Source of the DNA: Planctomycetaceae bacterium
GTDB taxonomy: Bacteria; Planctomycetota; Planctomycetia; Planctomycetales; Planctomycetaceae
Length of the DNA stretch: 36,660 nt
Reading direction: 5' to 3'
Assembly (NCBI GenBank): GCA_009691905.1
Contig: SIAF01000007.1
Span: forward strand, 1-36,660
The notes under the pieces are model-generated. The model was not told the origin of the DNA. It ran no database searches and saw nothing but the letters and a program-made list of their open reading frames with translations. Both the position numbers and the translations under genes were made by a program. This document shows positions 2,824-29,176 of the stretch, in pieces; position 1 is the stretch's first letter, and every line of letters begins with the position of its first letter.

Positions 2824-3675
2824 ATGCAAGCCTGGCCCATCGGTGTCTTTACTTCGGTCGACGCGGGACTTGGTGTCCATCTCGAGGTCGCGCAGGAACT
2901 CGGCGTCCCCACCGTGCAGATTCACGCGCCGCACGCCAAAACTCGCACCGCCAAGGCGGCCGGCGAGTTTTGGAAGAAGACTCAGGCCGCCGGCATCGCC
3001 GTCACCGCCGTTTTCGGCGGGTTTGACGGCGAGAGTTATGCCGATATTCCCACGACGGTCCGCACAGTGGGACTGGTTCCGCGGGAGACCCGCGCGGCAC
3101 GGCTGGCCGAAATGACCGAAATCTCCGATTTCGCAAAGCTTTTGGGCTGCAATACGGTGGCGCTGCATATCGGATTTGTACCCCCCGACCGAAAGAGTGC
3201 CGACTACCGCGACGTCATCAACTGCACCCGCGACCTGCTCGATCACGTCGCGGGCAATGCCCAGCATCTGAACCTCGAAACCGGACAGGAATCAGCCGAT
3301 CACCTGCTGGAGTTCATCGAGGACGTCGAACGGGACAACTTGTTCATCAATTTCGACCCGGCAAACATGATCCTCTACGGATCGGGCGAACCGATCGCCG
3401 CTTTGAAGAAAGTCGGCAAATACGTCCGCAGCGTGCATTGCAAGGACGCCAGATGGGCCGCCCCCGACAAGCGCGGCAAAGAGTGGGGCAGCGAAGTCGC
3501 GCTCGGCACCGGCGACGTGGGAATGGAAACCTACCTGCGAACGCTCAAAGACCTGGGCTACACCGGGCCGCTGACCATCGAACGTGAAATCGCCCACGAC
3601 CCCGAACGGCAAAAAGCCGACATCGGCGTCGCGGTGAAATTGTTGACCGATCTGCGGAAAAAGATTCTGGGCTGA
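2824..3675 (+). CDS. Sugar phosphate isomerase/epimerase (xylose isomerase-like TIM barrel)
   Basis: Translation contains LLGCNTVALHIGFVP, LNLETGQESADHLLEFIEDV, FINFDPANMILYGSGEPIAALKKVGKYVRSVHCKDA, TGPLTIERE. Confidence 0.88.
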   Translation: MQAWPIGVFTSVDAGLGVHLEVAQELGVPTVQIHAPHAKTRTAKAAGEFWKKTQAAGIAVTAVFGGFDGESYADIPTTVRTVGLVPRETRAARLAEMTEISDFAKLLGCNTVALHIGFVPPDRKSADYRDVINCTRDLLDHVAGNAQHLNLETGQESADHLLEFIEDVERDNLFINFDPANMILYGSGEPIAALKKVGKYVRSVHCKDARWAAPDKRGKEWGSEVALGTGDVGMETYLRTLKDLGYTGPLTIEREIAHDPERQKADIGVAVKLLTDLRKKILG

Positions 3676-12732: not shown

Positions 12733-14007
12733 TCAATGATCGTGGCCGTGATCATGCCCGTGATCGTGACTGTGGCTGTGTTCGTGCGAGGTCGCGTCGG
12801 CGGCGACCAGCTTTGGCGATGGGGTTTCCGTAAACGCAACCGGATTGCGCCCGAACGCCGCCTCGGCTTCGCGATAAACGTCGCGCAGCGGAATATTGTA
12901 GCGTGCGGCGACGGTCGCGCAGCTCTCGAACTCCGGCGTGAAAACAACCTGGTCGCCGAGTTTGCCGAGCTTTCCCTGAATCGTCCCCCACGCTGTCTCG
13001 ACCTGGCACTCCTGCCGGGCACGCTTGGTGCGCTCGACGAGTCGGCGGCGAATTCCGAAGGTTGCCGTCTCAGTGAACATCAACGACTCGAGCCGCTCGC
13101 GATCGCCCAGGCGCGCAATCACGCTCAACAGCACACCCGGTCGATCTTTTTTCATCTGAATCGGCGTGCTGAAAACGTCCAGCGCACCGGCGGCGAGCAG
13201 TTTCTGCTTCGTATAGCCGATCACCTCGCCGGGCACGTCATCAAGATTGGTTTCGAGGACCCACACCTCGTCGGTCGACTCGTGGGCGGCCGCCTCGCCG
13301 ACCAGTAGTCGCAGGACGTTGGCGCGATCGGCAAAATCCTTCGTCCCGGCACCGTAACCAATCGTCTCGATCGTCATCGCCGGGAGCGGACCAAAGCGGG
13401 ACACGACCGTCCGCAGAATCGCAGCCCCTGTCGGAGTGGTCAATTCGGCATCGACGGGCACATCGATCAGGGGAATCCCCTTCAGCAGTTCGGCGGTGCC
13501 GGGAGTCGGGACGGTACACACCCCGTGAGCGATGCGGACCTGGCCGCGCCCGGTCGGGACCGGGCCGGACAAAATCTGATCGGCCCCCAATAGATCGAAG
13601 CCGATCGCCGCTGCCACGATGTCGACGATCGAGTCGATCGCGCCGACTTCATGAAAGTGAATTTGTTCGAGCGTCGAGCCATGCACCCTGGCCTCAGCCT
13701 CGCCGATAGCGGTGAAAATCCGTCGTGCCAAATCTTTCTGCGGCGGCGACAATCGGTCGGCGGCGTCAATGATTCGGCAGATGTCGGCAAAATGCCGGTG
13801 GGCGTGCTGCTCGGGATGTTCGATCCGCAGGTACGTCGCACGAAAGCCGCAGCGCATCACGGTTTGAGTCTCGAGCCGCACCCCCGGCAGTTTCAACGAT
13901 TCGATGCCGGCGCAAATCGCCCCAAAATCGACGCCGGCGTCAACGAGGGCGGCAACCGTCATGTCGCCGCTGATGCCCGAAGAACAATCGAGATAGGCAA
14001 TTTGCAC
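12733..14007 (-). CDS. larC: Nickel insertion protein LarC family (nickel-pincer cofactor nickel chelatase)
   Basis: MQIAYLDCSSGISGDMTVAALVDAGVDF; IHFHEVGAIDSIVDIVAAAIGFDLL; TPTGAAIL; LETNLDDVPGEVIGY; His-rich C-terminus EHSHSHDHGHDHGHDH. Confidence 0.93.
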   Translation of the reverse strand: MQIAYLDCSSGISGDMTVAALVDAGVDFGAICAGIESLKLPGVRLETQTVMRCGFRATYLRIEHPEQHAHRHFADICRIIDAADRLSPPQKDLARRIFTAIGEAEARVHGSTLEQIHFHEVGAIDSIVDIVAAAIGFDLLGADQILSGPVPTGRGQVRIAHGVCTVPTPGTAELLKGIPLIDVPVDAELTTPTGAAILRTVVSRFGPLPAMTIETIGYGAGTKDFADRANVLRLLVGEAAAHESTDEVWVLETNLDDVPGEVIGYTKQKLLAAGALDVFSTPIQMKKDRPGVLLSVIARLGDRERLESLMFTETATFGIRRRLVERTKRARQECQVETAWGTIQGKLGKLGDQVVFTPEFESCATVAARYNIPLRDVYREAEAAFGRNPVAFTETPSPKLVAADATSHEHSHSHDHGHDHGHDH

Positions 14008-14504: not shown

Positions 14505-14935
14505 GACCCGCTTTTAGTTGCGACCCAAGACCCAGCCGGGAATCTGCGGTTTGAACCTTTGCTTGAGGCCGCTGGCGGCGCTCGTGCCGGCGTTTCCCGG
14601 CGTTTGCAGGCGATTCGTGATGTCACAATGTCACAATGTCACGTTCATGTGAATTTTCGAATTCTGCTGCCGCTGAGGTTTTTACGCTCGCCAAGCGTGT
14701 CGTGTTGCCGGCGATTGGCTGTTTTGAATTCTACAATTCTACGTTCATGTATTATCGTGAATTCTTCCGCCCCAGGAGAATCAGCGGGCCGAAACAGCGT
14801 GTGGAAACAGCGGGCCGAATCGACGTGAAGGTCATCATTTGCGGCGACGACGAAAGGCTGTGCGGCACTGACGGTCAATCGCGGCTGCCGAAAGCGTCTG
14901 GCCGCCAAGTCACTCAGAAACCCGATGCAAACCAA

Positions 14936-14987
14936 TGTCGCCTTTCGCTCCGCGAAAGAAAAAACTTTCGCGGAGCGAAAGGCGACA
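14936..14987. repeat. Perfect 23 bp inverted repeat, REPIN-like
   Basis: TGTCGCCTTTCGCTCCGCGAAAG / AAAAAA / CTTTCGCGGAGCGAAAGGCGACA; each arm also folds as CTTTCGC-TCC-GCGAAAG. Confidence 0.9.
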
Positions 14988-15706
14988 ATGAGAAACGTTC
15001 CGGCGTCAGCGATCAAGATTGCCACCCGGAAAATCGCCGTCTTCCGGCGGTTTTTGCAGGTCTGTGCTTCACAGCCGCACCATCCAGTCTTCACCGGGCC
15101 ACGAACGACGCCCCGCCGTTCGAATTTCGTTGTCAATTGTCCTTTGTCAATTGTCAATTGCCACGCGCCCTATTTTACCACGCCGCAAGGTTCCGCCAGA
15201 AGACCGCGGTGCGCAAATCTGGAAACGTGCCAAAAAAAAAGCACGGATGACTCTGACGGCGCCAAACATCAGTTTTTGTTGCCCCAAACGAGAAAAAGCC
15301 CAAGACAGGGGAAAACGATTCCTCCGCCGGTCTTACGATCGGCGGCGTTCTTGATCGAGTCCCGGTGCGCCAGGATTGACCGCCAAGTTCCAGGTTCGAC
15401 CCCTTGTCGCGGAAGGTTTTACGATTCACGCCGACAGCGGTTGCGTATCGGGCGCGCGTCGGTGTGTCGGACCGACGCGTCTTTCCGAAGCTGTTTCATT
15501 GTCCCAATGATACCGGACTTCGGCAAACGCCGGAAACCGCATCGACACACGGCGACACGAGGGAGCATCCGATCGAATGCGGAGCACACGGGAGCGCGCA
15601 ACGACGCTCGGTCAGACACAGCCTGTCCTACTGCAACTCGGTCCGCACGAGAAAGTCGCGCCATTCGCACTCGGCCCAAACTCGCCCTTGGATTTTAGAC
15701 GGGTTG

Positions 15707-15735
15707 TTGAACGTGAACGATTCCAGAGGTAAGAT
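15707..15735 (+). promoter_or_regulatory. Possible sigma70-like promoter of the three-gene cassette
   Basis: TTGAAC - 17 nt - TAAGAT, upstream of the 15850 ATG. Confidence 0.3.
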
Positions 15736-15849: not shown

Positions 15850-16587
15850 ATGTCCGGTCTCCGAAAGATCGTCGTCGAATGGCGCTACAAGCCGATGCTT
15901 GCCTTTTATCCGAAAATGGATGCGCTGGGAACCGAGCATGCGGAGGCGTTTCCTGATTGGCAGCGGACGGCGTTAAGTCTCGAAATCCGCGACAAGAAGC
16001 GACACCGGCGAGTGTTTTGGTCTCACCGGCGGAGTTTTTTTGAAGCCGAGAATCCGGAGAACCTGCCGGACACGTTCGCTATAATCGGTCGTTTCATCGA
16101 CAAGTTTTGTCGGGAAGTGGGCCATCGCGAATTAACGCGACTTGGCGTCCGCCAATGGTTCGCAATTCCAAGGGACGAGTCCTTTGCTGCGTTGCTCGAT
16201 CGGTTCTCCAGCAAGTTCCTGAACCCGAACGACAAATTAATTTCCGAAGCCGGCGGTTCGCTTACCGACACGCTTTATGCCGTCGACTTCAATTGGAAGG
16301 AAGGCTGGAAGGCGGCGCTCCGCGCTGGACCGATGATGCGAAAACAATGGTTTGATTCGATTCCCTACGAAACGGGCATTTTCCAAGACGCGCCGGCGTG
16401 GGAACGTGAACCTCCCAAAGGCACCTTTGAGGATTACCGTTGGTCGATTCCGGATCAGCTCCTATTCCTCGACCTGGATTGCTATCAAGAAGACATTGCG
16501 GTGGCTGATGTGGTGTCTCGTCTGTTGGATTGTCGACAGCAGTCGACGACGCTGGTGGACGCAGTGATCAAGTACTTCCTGGAGTGA
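15850..16587 (+). CDS. Uncharacterised protein, cassette gene 1 (possibly TIGR04255-like)
   Basis: ORF listed from 15745; MSGLRKIVVEWRYKP start at 15850 preferred. Segment HRELTRLGVRQWFAIPRDESFAALLDRFSSKFL is weakly reminiscent of the TIGR04255 core; family call tentative. Confidence 0.7.
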   Translation: MSGLRKIVVEWRYKPMLAFYPKMDALGTEHAEAFPDWQRTALSLEIRDKKRHRRVFWSHRRSFFEAENPENLPDTFAIIGRFIDKFCREVGHRELTRLGVRQWFAIPRDESFAALLDRFSSKFLNPNDKLISEAGGSLTDTLYAVDFNWKEGWKAALRAGPMMRKQWFDSIPYETGIFQDAPAWEREPPKGTFEDYRWSIPDQLLFLDLDCYQEDIAVADVVSRLLDCRQQSTTLVDAVIKYFLE

Positions 16588-16591
16588 TGAA

Positions 16592-17239
16592 ATGGCAGCG
16601 CTCGCTGGATTGGCCGAACGACAGAGGACTTGCGGTTCTCCCGGGAACCTTGTCAATTTCGAGTTGCCCGCCACCGTTCCTGGCGCCGAACGCACGCCAC
16701 CCCGACGCGCTCCAAAGTCCAATCCGTGGCAGCGAACCGTTTCGGAGACTGACGATGAGATCAACGTTGACGGGGAACGCGAACAATCCACGGCGACGGA
16801 CGGGGACGGCGGTTCGAGGGGGACTCAAGACGTACAGGACACCGGAGAACGCGCTCGTTTCGCCGAGCGACTGGTCGAACTGATTGATCGCACACGTCAC
16901 TCCGTCGGAAGACTCGAATTCGCGAGCGATCTTCAATTGCTCAAACGGGATTTGTCACGTTGCCACAACCTCTCTAAGACAAGCGCGAGCGATGTAATCT
17001 TCCAATCGCTGGTCACCGACGTCGAATCGTCGTTGGCGTCAACCGGATGGAGGGAGATCACGGCCAGCCAACTTGCCGTGATTCGGGAAGTCATTTTCTG
17101 CGCATACCGCCTACCAGGCCTCGACGTCGCCTTTCTCCGGGAGGCTCGGGAAAAAATGACTAAGGCAGGCATCGAGACGATTCCGCGAGTAGATCTCCTG
17201 TCGCTCAAAATCGACGACGACTCCGACGATGACTTCTGA
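16592..17239 (+). CDS. Uncharacterised protein, cassette gene 2 (low-complexity N-terminus, acidic C-terminal tail)
   Basis: Starts 4 nt after gene 1 stop and overlaps gene 3 by 11 nt; C-terminus DLLSLKIDDDSDDDF. Confidence 0.7.
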   Translation: MAALAGLAERQRTCGSPGNLVNFELPATVPGAERTPPRRAPKSNPWQRTVSETDDEINVDGEREQSTATDGDGGSRGTQDVQDTGERARFAERLVELIDRTRHSVGRLEFASDLQLLKRDLSRCHNLSKTSASDVIFQSLVTDVESSLASTGWREITASQLAVIREVIFCAYRLPGLDVAFLREAREKMTKAGIETIPRVDLLSLKIDDDSDDDF

Positions 17240-18140
17240 GAAAACTCCGACAAGATCGCGTAAACGCGCGCGATTTCTTCTCGACACGAGTGCCGTCTAC
17301 TACCAGTTGCTTGGCCACCGGGTACAAGTCGATTCAGTGGCTGATGCGGTTGGGGATGGGTGGACGGAAGTTCCCGGATTCGTGCGGATGGAGTTCCTCC
17401 GCGGGATCATCGTCAATCTGCTTCAATTGTACTTCCTCATCAAAGAGGAGGTCACCTCCGGTGGCACGGTCCGGGATGCACTGAAGGAGTGGGCACAGGT
17501 CGTCCATCAGGATCGGAAGCTCAAAGCATACATGCAAACGGAAGAAAACTGGTTGCTGGGCCACGAGGACTGGAACGACCCCGATCGGTCGCTGCCTCGC
17601 CTCGGAAATGCGATCGTTCGCCTCGTCGCGGCGTTTGATGCGCAATACACCAGCCATTCAAAGGACGAATTGAGCTGTGAATTGGGCAAGATCAGATTCC
17701 CCGATCGGCCCTATGGCGAAAATCTGCTGCTCGATTTCTTAGATCATTTCCGGTCGATCAAGTCAGGCGTCCCCGCGTGCAATCTTTGTAGGTTTCGAGC
17801 GCGGAACGAGCAGACGCTTCTTATCCGTGCCATTGACCTCCACAGTGAGGAGCAGCGACGCCGACACGCGAACAACAAGGGATACGTTCGCCAGGCCGAA
17901 CGACTTGAAGCGGAATTGGCCCGTAACCGCCGTCAACCAGCATGCTCGATTTGCGAAAAAGTGGGTGATACGATCATCGCCCTGCTTGCCCCGGAAGTTG
18001 CAACGATCCTGACGTCCGATCGCTCATTTGATGCGTTCGGTCAGATCCTAAGGATCAACGTGAGAGTGCTCCCTTCGCTTGCGCAGCTCAAGGCCCATCT
18101 ACAGCAGCAATCTGGCGATGTTGACACCGGCCGAATGTAG
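17229..18140 (+). CDS. PIN-like domain protein with CxxC...CxxC insertion, cassette gene 3
   Basis: ARFLLDTSAVYYQL (D19), FVRMEFLRG (E55), CEKVGDTIIALLA (D247), TILTSDRSFDAF (D264/D268) in PIN order; PACNLCRF and PACSICEK cysteine pairs (C184/C187, C239/C242). Confidence 0.75.
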   Translation: MTSEKTPTRSRKRARFLLDTSAVYYQLLGHRVQVDSVADAVGDGWTEVPGFVRMEFLRGIIVNLLQLYFLIKEEVTSGGTVRDALKEWAQVVHQDRKLKAYMQTEENWLLGHEDWNDPDRSLPRLGNAIVRLVAAFDAQYTSHSKDELSCELGKIRFPDRPYGENLLLDFLDHFRSIKSGVPACNLCRFRARNEQTLLIRAIDLHSEEQRRRHANNKGYVRQAERLEAELARNRRQPACSICEKVGDTIIALLAPEVATILTSDRSFDAFGQILRINVRVLPSLAQLKAHLQQQSGDVDTGRM

Positions 18141-18201: not shown

Positions 18202-18224
18202 GCATCGGTCACATCGACCGATGC
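18202..18224. terminator. Hairpin downstream of the three-gene cassette (candidate terminator)
   Basis: GCATCGGTC-ACATC-GACCGATGC, perfect 9 bp stem; no clear T-tract follows. Confidence 0.45.
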
Positions 18225-18358
18225 ATCGAAGCTGCTCAGGTGGGCGATATCACAGCCGTTCGGTAGAACAGCCATCGACGACTCTGGCCGTCAGCATCTT
18301 ATCGCGGTATCCTCAATGGGTCCGGCATTGGATGTCTCCGTCCCCCCGTGAGTCGCGC

Positions 18359-21300
18359 ATGATCGCTCCCTCGTCCCGTCCCGCCCGACTCTGGCTGGTC
18401 TTTCTATTGCTGATGATTATCGGTTTGGCCCGGGCACGCGCGGCGGTCGCCGACGAACTTCCGTCTTCCGCGAAAGGCAAATCACGCGTCGAATTCAACC
18501 GCGATATCCGGCCGCTGCTTTCGGACAACTGCTTTCAGTGCCATGGGCCTGATGCCGCGAAACGCCAGGCCGAACTGCGTCTCGACACCGAGGCGGGGGC
18601 CACAGCCGATCTCGGGGGCCGCTCGGCCCTCGTGGCGGCCAGCCTCGAACAGAGTGAGCTGTACCAGCGGTTGATTGCAGCCGACCCCGCCGAGACGATG
18701 CCCCCCCCGGCTTCGGGCAAATCGCTGACCCCCCCGCAAATCGAGCTGATTCGCCGATGGATCGAACAGGGGGCCGCGTGGCAACAGCACTGGTCGCTCA
18801 TCCCGCCGGTTCGGCTGCCGACGCCGATCGTCAACGGCTCGGAATGGGTCCGCAATCCGATCGATGCATTCGTCCTGGCCCGGTTGGAACGAGAAGGATT
18901 ATCGCCCTCTCCCGAAACCGATCGAACGACGCTGCTGCGACGGGTTTCGCTCGACCTCACCGGACTGCCCCCCACCCCCGACGAAGTCGATGCGTTTCTG
19001 GCCGACAACTCGCCGGCGGCCTATGAGAATGTCGTCAATCGTTTGCTCGACTCGCCCCGGTTCGGCGAGCGGATGGCCGTTCGCTGGCTCGACGGAGCGC
19101 GCTATGCCGACACCAGCGGATACCAGAGCGATGGCGAGCGGTACATGTGGCGCTGGCGCGACTGGGTGATCGAAGCCTACAATGCCAATCTGCCGTTCGA
19201 TCAATTTACGATCGAACAACTTGCCGGCGACCTGCTGCCGGGAGCGACTCTCGAACAGCAGATCGCCAGCGGCTTCAATCGTAACCATCGGCAGAACGCG
19301 GAAGGGGGCATCATTCCCGAAGAGTATGCCGTCGAGTACGTCGTCGATCGCGTTGAAACGACATTTACGGTCTGGATGGGCCTGACGATGGGCTGCGGCC
19401 GCTGCCACGACCATAAGTTCGACCCGCTGACGCAGCGCGAGTTTTATCAGTCGTTCGCCTACTTCAACAACGTGCCTGAATTCGGTCGCGCCAGCAAATA
19501 CGGGAACTCGCCGCCGATGATCAAGGCCCCGACACCATTTCAATTGCAGCAGCTCGCGGCGCTCGACGCCCGCGTGGCCCAGGCCCTGGCCGACTTCGAT
19601 CGGCAAGCGCCGGCGATCGCCGCCGGCCAGGCCGCATGGGAGCGGTCGCTCGACCCGCTCCAAATCGCCGACCCGACGACGACGCGCGGCGAGGTGTATC
19701 GCGCCTCCCTCAATCGAGTCGATTCTTCGGCCACACAGGCACTGCCCGAGCAGTTCGACGAGGGTGAGCCTGCCTATGCACCCGGCCGAATCGGGGAGGC
19801 GGCCGAGTTTGACGGAACCCGGTTTGTGAACGCGGGGGACGTGGCGGCGTTCGGCTTTCTCGACAAATTCAGCCTGTCGGGGTGGATTTTCCCCCGTGGG
19901 CCAGCGGGCGGGGCGATTGTCTCCCGCATGACCGATGCCGAACACGCCGACGGGTACTCTCTCGTTCTCGAGAACGGCCGCCTGCAACTCAATCTCGTCA
20001 AACGCTGGCTGGACGATGCGCTGCGCGTCGAAACCGAGCACCCCCTGGAACCCGACTTGTGGCATCATGTTCTGGTCACCTATGACGGTTCGCGCCAGGC
20101 CGCGGGCGTCAACTTCTACATCGACGGCAGCCCGGCGGCGATCAAGGTGAATCTGGACCAGCTCAATCAGACCTTCGCGACAAAGGAACCGCTGCGGATC
20201 GGCGCCGGGAACGGGCCAAACGGACGGTTTCATGGACTGATCGACGATGTGCGAGTCTACAAGACCGTCGTGACGGCCCAGGAAGCGGCGGTCGTTTCCA
20301 CAGCCGATACGGTGGCCGAAATCGCGGCCCTGCCCGAGAACCGCCGCACTCCGAATCAGGCAACGAAGCTCCGCGTGCTGTATCTTGAAAAGTATGCGCC
20401 GGCCGCTCTGCGTGAGGCGCGCGACCGCTTATTTTCACTCCGGCAGGCGTCCTCGGAGTTTGCCGAAAGTCTCCCCACGACGATGGTCATGCAGGAGTTG
20501 CCGACCCCCCGTGAAACGCACATTCTGCTTCGCGGCGAATACGACAAACCCGGTGACAAAGTGACGCGCGGCACCCCCGGATGCCTCCCCGCGTTCCCTC
20601 CCCGAGGGCCGCTCAACCGCCTGGGCTTTGCCCGATGGCTGGTTGAGCCGAATCATCCGCTCACGGCGCGCGTCGCCGTCAATCGCCTGTGGCAAATGCT
20701 GTTTGGCACCGGAATCGTCAAGACGGTCGACGACTTCGGAGCACAAGGTGAATGGCCCAGCCACGCTGAACTGCTCGACTGGCTGGCGTGCGAATTCATG
20801 CAACCGGGCGACAATCTCGGCACTGCACCCGCCTGGGACACGAAGCGTCTGCTGCGCCTTTTGGTCACGTCGTCGACCTATCGGCAGTCGTCGCGCGTGA
20901 CGAGCGAGCTATGGCACCGCGACCCCGACAACCGGCTGCTGGCCCGCGGCCCCCGCTTGCGGCTGCCGGCCGAAATGGTCCGCGACCAGGCGTTGTTCGC
21001 CTCCGGCCTGCTCGTCGAAAAACGGGGCGGTCCGTCGGTCAAACCGTATCAGCCCGACGGCCTGTGGAAAGAACTGGCCGATGTCGAGTACGTTCAGGAT
21101 CACGGCGATAATTTGTATCGCCGGGGGATGTACACCTTCTGGAAGCGAACGATTCCCCCACCCACGATGATGACGTTCGACAGCGCCGGCCGTGAAACGT
21201 GCATCGTTCGCGAAACGCGAACCAACACGCCGTTGCAGGCCCTGACGCTGATGAACGACGTCACGTTTGTCGAAGCCTCGCGGGCGCTGGCGCAGCGTGT

Positions 21301-21574
21301 GCTGCGTGCCGCCGGCCCGACCCCCGCCGAGCGGCTGACGCTGGCCTTTCGACTGGCCGTCTCGCGCACACCGACGCCGGCCGAGCTGCAGGTGCTGGTC
21401 GCCGGCTGGCAGGCACAACGGGATCGCTTTGCCGCCGACCCGCAGGCGGCCGACGAGTTGCTCAGCCAGGGAGAATTGCCTCGCGACAACCAATTCGACC
21501 CTGCCGAAGCGGCCGCCTATACGACGCTGGCGGGCGTGATTCTGAATCTGGATGAGACGATTACGAAGGAATGA
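18359..21574 (+). CDS. PSD1-type protein: planctomycete cytochrome c, DUF1549, LamG-like and DUF1553 domains
   Basis: Signal-like [94 protein letters not shown]...[11 protein letters not shown] (LamG-like); [19 protein letters not shown]; listed ORF starts at 18221. Confidence 0.93.
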
Positions 21575-28542: not shown

Positions 28543-28968
28543 TTAAACAGACCAGTCTTCGATCCTGAGATCAGGGACTCGCCCAAAGTCGATTGAATTT
28601 CGCGTGAGCAGCGTGGCGTCGTGTGCCAGGCAAATCGCGGCAATTTTCAGATCCATCGTGCCAATCCGGACCTTGTCACTGTGAAGCTGTTGAAACACGA
28701 TTGCTGCTCGATTGTCAAAGTCCAAAACTCGCATCTGAGTATAGTTTTCCAGGTGGCGGTGTAATTTCCCATAACACTGGACTTGTCTCGCAATTGTTTT
28801 CGCTTTGGCGAGATATGCCAACCAGCCTCGAGTTTGCTCTTCGTAGGTCACGATTGTTGTCGCAACCGCGTCACCGGCCTGATCCTCAAGGCGTGAAGTC
28901 AATCGAGCCCCTTCCGGTGAATGCGCGTGCTGCAACAGAGTTATGTGGTCAGTGTCAAGAACGACCAT
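28543..28968 (-). CDS. PIN domain (VapC-like) toxin
   Basis: MVVLDTDHITLLQ, TTIVTYEEQTRGWLAYL, DKVRIGTMDLKIAAICLAHDATLLTRNSIDFGRVPDLRIEDW. Confidence 0.9.
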   Translation of the reverse strand: MVVLDTDHITLLQHAHSPEGARLTSRLEDQAGDAVATTIVTYEEQTRGWLAYLAKAKTIARQVQCYGKLHRHLENYTQMRVLDFDNRAAIVFQQLHSDKVRIGTMDLKIAAICLAHDATLLTRNSIDFGRVPDLRIEDWSV

Positions 28969-29176
28969 TTCGTCGTCTTCCAGATTTGGGCCGGAGGGAC
29001 TCCCGGTATTCGCGACCAAGTTTCATGGCGGCCTCATGATCGGCATCGCCAGCGAAGGAGCCTTGAATCAATTTCCACCAGGGAATTTCGGCCTTTGACG
29101 CCGATGCTTTCTGATTCAACGATTCGACTTTGGATTCGAGGGCGGCGAGGCGTTTTTCCAATTGTGCAATAGTCAT
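28955..29176 (-). CDS. Putative antitoxin/partner of the VapC-like toxin (coiled-coil)
   Basis: MTIAQLEKRLAALESKVESLNQKASASKAEIPWWKLIQGSFAGDADHEAAMKLGREYRESL...; 3' end overlaps the toxin start by 14 nt. Confidence 0.7.
   Translation of the reverse strand: MTIAQLEKRLAALESKVESLNQKASASKAEIPWWKLIQGSFAGDADHEAAMKLGREYRESLRPKSGRRRNGRS

Follow-up and report, generated by a model that had tools for sequence, protein, structure and literature searches.

The window analysed here, by which we mean the whole stretch of DNA, is a 36,660-base contig within a 6.4-Mb planctomycete assembly. It contains a cassette of three tightly packed plus-strand genes between larC (12733–14007, minus strand) and a PSD1 gene (18221–21574, plus strand). 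Both these flanks and the packing, with a 4-nt gap between genes 1 and 2 and an 11-nt overlap of genes 2 and 3, agree with the first-pass annotation. The three open reading frames are treated as genes because homologues of all three stand elsewhere in the same order. The features of the cassette are as follows.

15850..16587, plus strand: gene 1, 245 aa; remote likeness to TIGR04255; third component as proposed (a sensor, or a protein on which the antitoxin depends)
16592..17239, plus strand: gene 2, 215 aa; proposed antitoxin
16592..16846, plus strand: low-complexity N-terminal extension of gene 2, approximately residues 1–85 (approximate boundary); three-gene loci only
16979..17239, plus strand: conserved C-terminal region and acidic tail of gene 2, from alignments; boundaries approximate
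17229..18140, plus strand: gene 3, 303 aa; PIN-like with an insertion of ~190 aa; proposed RNase toxin
17283..17285, plus strand: D19 codon, first PIN acid; invariant
17391..17393, plus strand: E55 codon, second PIN acid; invariant
17676..17678, plus strand: C150 codon, insertion cysteine; invariant
17778..17780, plus strand: C184 codon, insertion cysteine; invariant
17943..17954, plus strand: C239-x-x-C242, directly before the third acid; C242 invariant, C239 variable
17967..17969, plus strand: D247 codon, third PIN acid; invariant GD
18018..18020, plus strand: D264 codon, fourth PIN acidic position; Asn in two relatives (G494 and G281)

Two flanking signals proposed in the first-pass annotation did not hold up. 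For the −35/−10-like pair at 15707–15735, a scan gave no match on the plus strand and shuffled sequence yielded as many, and on these grounds a sigma-70 promoter upstream of the cassette was rejected. The hairpin at 18202–18224 has a z-score of −1.5, is matched by 19 of 200 shuffles, and lacks a T-run; an intrinsic terminator downstream of the cassette was rejected likewise.

GC3 of the cassette genes is 0.63–0.64, compared with 0.74–0.78 in larC, PSD1, purD, and two DUF1501 genes of the same window, a difference that points to probable horizontal acquisition of the cassette. The repeat-rich stretch noticed nearby does include an element recurring across the genome, namely a near-perfect 26-bp palindrome at 14933–14990 (CAATGTCGCCTTTCGCTCCGCGAAAG and its complement, with a 6-nt loop). 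Its 20-base arm has 47 copies in the genome at two or fewer mismatches, mostly as inverted pairs, and none when read backwards, as in a REP-like element. Elsewhere in the window, the minus strand at 28543–29019 carries an ordinary VapC-like PIN gene (a 158-aa open reading frame with a PF01850 match at 28573–28965). Its GC3 of 0.545 is far below that of its neighbours, and a short open reading frame upstream of it is a possible antitoxin gene.

Distribution in planctomycetes and on cyanobacterial plasmids

The order of genes 1, 2, and 3 recurs in four other planctomycete genomes (G048, G473, G494, and G281). Thus, genes 1 and 2 accompany gene 3 in 5/5 complete planctomycete loci, which upholds the earlier idea of a conserved module. 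The locus of G048, a Fuerstiella sp. MAG found by the gene 3 search, has the trio in the window order and adjoins a tyrosine-integrase fragment; of two scans of genome contigs, one was empty and the other matched G048 alone. Profile searches detected the complete trios of G473, G494, and G281, which come from other families of the phylum. Several relatives have a short gap in place of the 11-nt overlap of genes 2 and 3, the order being the same. In G288 and G546, only C-terminal pieces of gene 3 were found, near contig ends. Gene 3 was searched in an estimated ~620 different Planctomycetota genomes, and five complete trios in this set suggest a sporadic distribution; five is a lower bound, since G494 and G281 had been missed by earlier, narrower profiles.

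A tblastn search with gene 3 matched eight Nostocales plasmids at ~25% identity over 83–92% of its length, with E-values down to 1e-12. A 136-aa gene 2 precedes gene 3 there, both annotated as hypothetical, and gene 1 is absent at all cyanobacterial plasmid loci. A 115-aa gene upstream of the pair at two loci (L010 and L011) was considered as a substitute for gene 1 and dropped, as it has no family and is not on every plasmid. Close to the pair are parA/parB and/or a tyrosine recombinase; plasmids pCC7120gamma of Nostoc sp. PCC 7120 and pNPUN03 of N. punctiforme carry it without annotation. Among the Nostocales plasmids, gene 3 is 84–94% identical, with dN/dS mostly 0.1–0.2. The three-gene module looks mobile.

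Sequence features of the gene 2 and gene 3 products

The first-pass annotation had described gene 3 as PIN-like, and profile–profile comparison supports this for the N-terminal half. Against a profile of 24 planctomycete PF01850 proteins, the half containing D19 and E55 scores an E-value of 2.5e-6 and a z-score of 18.6, reached by 0/100 column shuffles. The C-terminal half, marginal when taken alone (z 3.1, reached by 2/100 shuffles), aligns in register, with GD247 and D264 falling on the third and fourth PIN acids, and the middle of the protein matches nothing (z −0.5). The D19–E55 and D247–D264 spacings agree with those of the aligned PIN proteins. From the match of the N-terminal half, the register of the C-terminal half, and the blank middle, we provisionally assign the gene 3 product to the PIN type, with an insertion of ~190 residues separating the second acid from the third.

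Conservation was scored in an alignment of 11 gene 3 sequences, in which D19-T-S, E55, C150, C184, C242, and G246-D247 are invariant; the acids D19, E55, and D247 are thus kept across phyla. The set of acidic residues listed earlier stands in these three, and in D264 except for Asn in G494 and G281; D268 is not conserved. That gene 3 exceeds an ordinary VapC in size is true of all members, which have 273–303 aa and ~190 residues between E55 and D247. C239 is missing in G473, G494, and G281; together with C242, C150, and C184 it marks a possible metal site. The two PIN halves submitted separately to hmmscan gave no match, and AlphaFold2 with a two-sequence input produced an unusable model (pLDDT 45.6).

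Gene 2 is the fastest-evolving of the three module genes. Its product in G494 and G281 is clearly related to that of G473 (z 11.8) and also to the cyanobacterial family (z 6.3). The window protein resembles the latter weakly (z 2.6; p 0.01 in another comparison), with a W…P segment likewise placed, and for the G048 protein the link to the cyanobacterial family is not significant. The gene 2 product measures 189–215 aa at the five loci that have gene 1 and 136 aa on the plasmids, which lack gene 1. The additional residues are at the N-terminus and are not conserved from one locus to another, and we propose them as the region through which gene 2 might depend on gene 1. The C-terminal region, with the pattern ...G(F/I)xTxP... 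followed by an acidic end, is the proposed toxin-binding part. No DNA-binding domain was found in gene 2, and no antitoxin family among the Pfam, NCBIfam, PADLOC, and PHROG models matched it or its homologues.

More generally, genes 1–3 and their homologues passed no model of Pfam, NCBIfam, PADLOC, or PHROGs, the sole sub-threshold hint for gene 3 being NCBIfam VapC (E 0.08). PADLOC-DB 2.0.0 gave no match to them at E ≤ 1, and the GenBank phage collection none to the module. The three-gene module is real, conserved, and undescribed; no described system matched it.

Gene 1 and the operons of the TIGR04255 family

The weak resemblance of gene 1 to TIGR04255, noted in the first-pass annotation, disappears at the level of family models and returns in profile comparisons. 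The TIGR04255 model (cut-off 30 bits) has no match in the genome of the window even at E ≤ 10, and hmmscan gave none either, so that direct membership was rejected. On the other hand, a profile of five gene 1 sequences aligns end to end with 34 planctomycete TIGR04255 proteins (E 2.5e-5 and z 11.1 in a global hhalign comparison, a score that none of 100 column shuffles reached); an earlier comparison of three and twelve sequences had given z 5.9, with reversed sequence at background. Because this alignment extends from end to end and no shuffle is as good, gene 1 is classed, at the profile level, as a remote relative of TIGR04255 and not as a member by the curated threshold. Homologues of gene 1 occupy the same position in four loci (L002, L017, L090, and L091). 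Neither gene 1 nor the TIGR04255 proteins match SecB in Pfam, and identity of gene 1 with SecB was rejected on this basis. TIGR04255 proteins had no match among PDB sequences, and the AlphaFold2 model of gene 1, again from two sequences, was unusable (pLDDT 34.1).

Neighbourhoods of TIGR04255 genes were examined at 35 planctomycete loci (including L022–L033 and L064–L086). Many of them are compact operons in which the TIGR04255 gene is followed, with an overlap or almost no gap, by a small divergent gene (recognised by position only) and then by an exchangeable third gene. The third genes most commonly encode QGD-motif proteins, others being MBL-fold proteins and unknown proteins of 130–150 aa. 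At three loci (L029, L030, and L081) the third gene encodes a PIN protein, shortened in L030, and follows a gene of 71–104 aa; at L073, the TIGR04255 gene is followed by a Phd-like gene and a PIN gene. All PIN-profile matches in these loci are downstream and on the same strand. In our reading, the ends of the small genes in L030 and L081 resemble those of VapB-type antitoxins.

Three further loci (L083–L085) have a TIGR04255 gene, then a 240-aa gene, then a ComEC-like MBL-fold gene. The MBL gene of L084 is weakly similar to the MBL models of Lamassu LmuA and AVAST Avs1a; its PADLOC matches, being partial and weak, were rejected as a system match. The planctomycete TIGR04255 operons look like an undescribed family of modules, and a full-text search of one collection of papers turned up no article that names TIGR04255.

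Unequal loss of genes 2 and 3 and the proposed function

A search with the 136-aa gene 2 yielded 14 plasmids. Gene 3 is intact in 8/14, all with gene 2, and absent, deleted, or broken in 6/14; no intact gene 3 stands on a plasmid lacking gene 2. In Anabaena cylindrica PCC 7122, TIOX110, and Dolichospermum DET69, the last ~22 codons of gene 3 stand right after an intact gene 2; the spacers at these deletions are 94–97% identical, and their sequences mark the deletion as one shared event. Gene 2 of these three is under purifying selection (dN/dS 0.17–0.29). In Nostoc NIES-3756, gene 3 is reduced to its last ~77 C-terminal codons, with another gene between the remnant and gene 2. It is gone from a Lobaria cyanobiont plasmid, where CBASS and type I restriction genes adjoin gene 2, and absent from UHCC 0302, where gene 2 is slightly changed near its end. 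Gene 3 thus appears to have been lost several times, perhaps in four events, with gene 2 kept. Such unequal loss fits an antitoxin–toxin pair, because a toxin without its antitoxin should not persist; alternatively, selection on a solitary gene 2 could reflect an independent function.

Some of these loci have further features. On plasmid pNLP4 of the lichen cyanobiont (L093:3001–5436), the solitary gene 2 has type I restriction genes on one side and, on the other, a CBASS cyclase with an S-4TM effector. On three related plasmids (L094, L096, and L097), a DEAD/DEAH helicase gene begins at 3639, 227 nt past the solitary gene 2, and some of the spacer sequence recurs upstream of gene 2, possibly as a scar of the recombination that removed gene 3.

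The reading that we favour, and hold to be reasonably probable, takes the cassette to be a mobile module that has three components and resembles toxin–antitoxin systems, with a PIN toxin (gene 3), its antitoxin (gene 2), and a controlling third component (gene 1). It builds on what the sequence comparison offers, i.e., gene order, the PIN relation, the remote TIGR04255 relation, the unequal loss of genes 2 and 3, and the plasmid context. The first-pass annotation had made gene 3 the effector and genes 1 and 2 sensor or antitoxin; the pattern of gene 3 loss makes gene 2 the likely antitoxin, and gene 1 becomes a dispensable third component, absent on the cyanobacterial plasmids. Gene 3 would be a PIN-fold ribonuclease toxin enlarged by the cysteine-bearing insertion between its second and third catalytic acids, and gene 2 a protein antitoxin binding it through the C-terminal region and acidic tail. 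In the three-gene versions, the extra N-terminal segment would make gene 2 depend on gene 1. A trigger titrating gene 1 away would then cause gene 2 to fail or be degraded, and the freed gene 3 product would cut RNA and stop growth.

Gene 2 might instead be an adaptor or targeting subunit, and genes 1–3 a sensor–adaptor–nuclease immune complex attacking the RNA or DNA of invaders, in which gene 3 would stay inactive before assembly. The conserved C-terminal part, divergent N-terminus, and acidic tail of gene 2 suit an adaptor as well, the solitary gene 2 of the Lobaria cyanobiont has defence genes as neighbours, and other TIGR04255 operons have MBL-type third genes with a weak likeness to LmuA and Avs1a. 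This possibility is nevertheless an unlikely one, given that gene 2 persists, and remains under purifying selection, where gene 3 has been lost, that no intact gene 3 occurs without gene 2, and that most plasmid pairs adjoin partition genes and not defence islands. Still less likely are genes 2 and 3 to be a plain two-gene toxin–antitoxin pair for plasmid or locus addiction, with gene 1 as a functionally separate passenger. Such a pair would account for the missing gene 1 at all cyanobacterial plasmid loci, but gene 1 is directly upstream in all five complete planctomycete loci, which come from several families, the longer form of gene 2 coincides exactly with the presence of gene 1, and TIGR04255 genes generally head similar operons. 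The least probable alternative makes gene 3 a non-toxic nuclease serving RNA processing or plasmid maintenance, its cofactors being the products of genes 1 and 2. In its favour are the strong conservation of gene 3 on Nostocales plasmids and the adjacent parA/parB; these are outweighed by the sporadic distribution, the atypical composition, the retention of gene 2 where gene 3 has been lost, and the PIN–antitoxin arrangement of related TIGR04255 operons.

Read as a toxin–antitoxin module, the cassette resembles VapBC in having the antitoxin gene directly upstream of the PIN gene and, in the window, overlapping its start, in the PIN-type N-terminal half and acidic-residue spacing of gene 3, and in its mobile, sporadic occurrence. 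It differs in the length of gene 3 and its insertion with conserved cysteines, in that gene 3 passes no PIN family model, in a gene 2 without a recognisable VapB domain, and in the third gene of the planctomycete module. Simple VapBC membership was rejected because of the size of gene 3 and the lack of a family match.

A second comparison is with TAC systems, in which a short extension of the antitoxin, variable in sequence, confers dependence on a SecB-like chaperone and is absent in chaperone-independent antitoxins (PMC5105189). In CmdTAC, a capsid protein of the phage diverts the chaperone, upon which the antitoxin is degraded and the toxin freed (PMC11618068). The module likewise comprises three genes, a longer form of its proposed antitoxin occurs solely alongside the third gene (cf. 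the ChAD region of TAC antitoxins), and its third component could be a sensor. In contrast to TAC, gene 1 resembles TIGR04255 with no match to SecB, the proposed toxin is a PIN protein, the antitoxin extension is N-terminal and not C-terminal, and the gene order differs. Because the length pattern of gene 2 is shared and the third component, the extended end, and the toxin are not, the module may work like a TAC system by analogy, without being a member. On this reading it would have a new PIN subtype in gene 3 and a third component unrelated to that of TAC.

The operons of TIGR04255 (sporadTIGR04255) share with the cassette their compactness and their layout, in which the TIGR04255 gene or gene 1 comes first and a small divergent gene and a third gene come after it; L029, L030, and L081 have a PIN gene in third place. 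However, gene 1 is under the model cut-off and related by profile–profile comparison only, and the PIN genes of those operons are ordinary-sized. The order regulator–antitoxin–toxin is also that of omega-epsilon-zeta, whose first gene is dispensable in some relatives; the zeta toxin, in contrast, is a kinase and not a PIN nuclease. More tentatively, as a possibility that we would not yet call probable, TIGR04255 proteins may serve as the shared sensor or gatekeeper in a large, as yet undescribed class of conflict modules, each made up of a TIGR04255 gene, a small antitoxin or adaptor gene, and a gene for an interchangeable effector such as a PIN, MBL-fold, or QGD protein. The cassette would then be a divergent member with a new PIN subtype, its gene 2 extension serving as a dependence tag that couples the antitoxin to the sensor.

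If the proposed function is true, a family of PIN toxins that current models miss would be added, a second protein family besides SecB-like chaperones would act as the third toxin–antitoxin component, and the uncharacterised TIGR04255 family would gain a testable function. Model cyanobacteria have the pair on their plasmids, and related plasmids provide natural variants that have lost the proposed toxin gene, so that the idea would be directly testable in laboratory strains.
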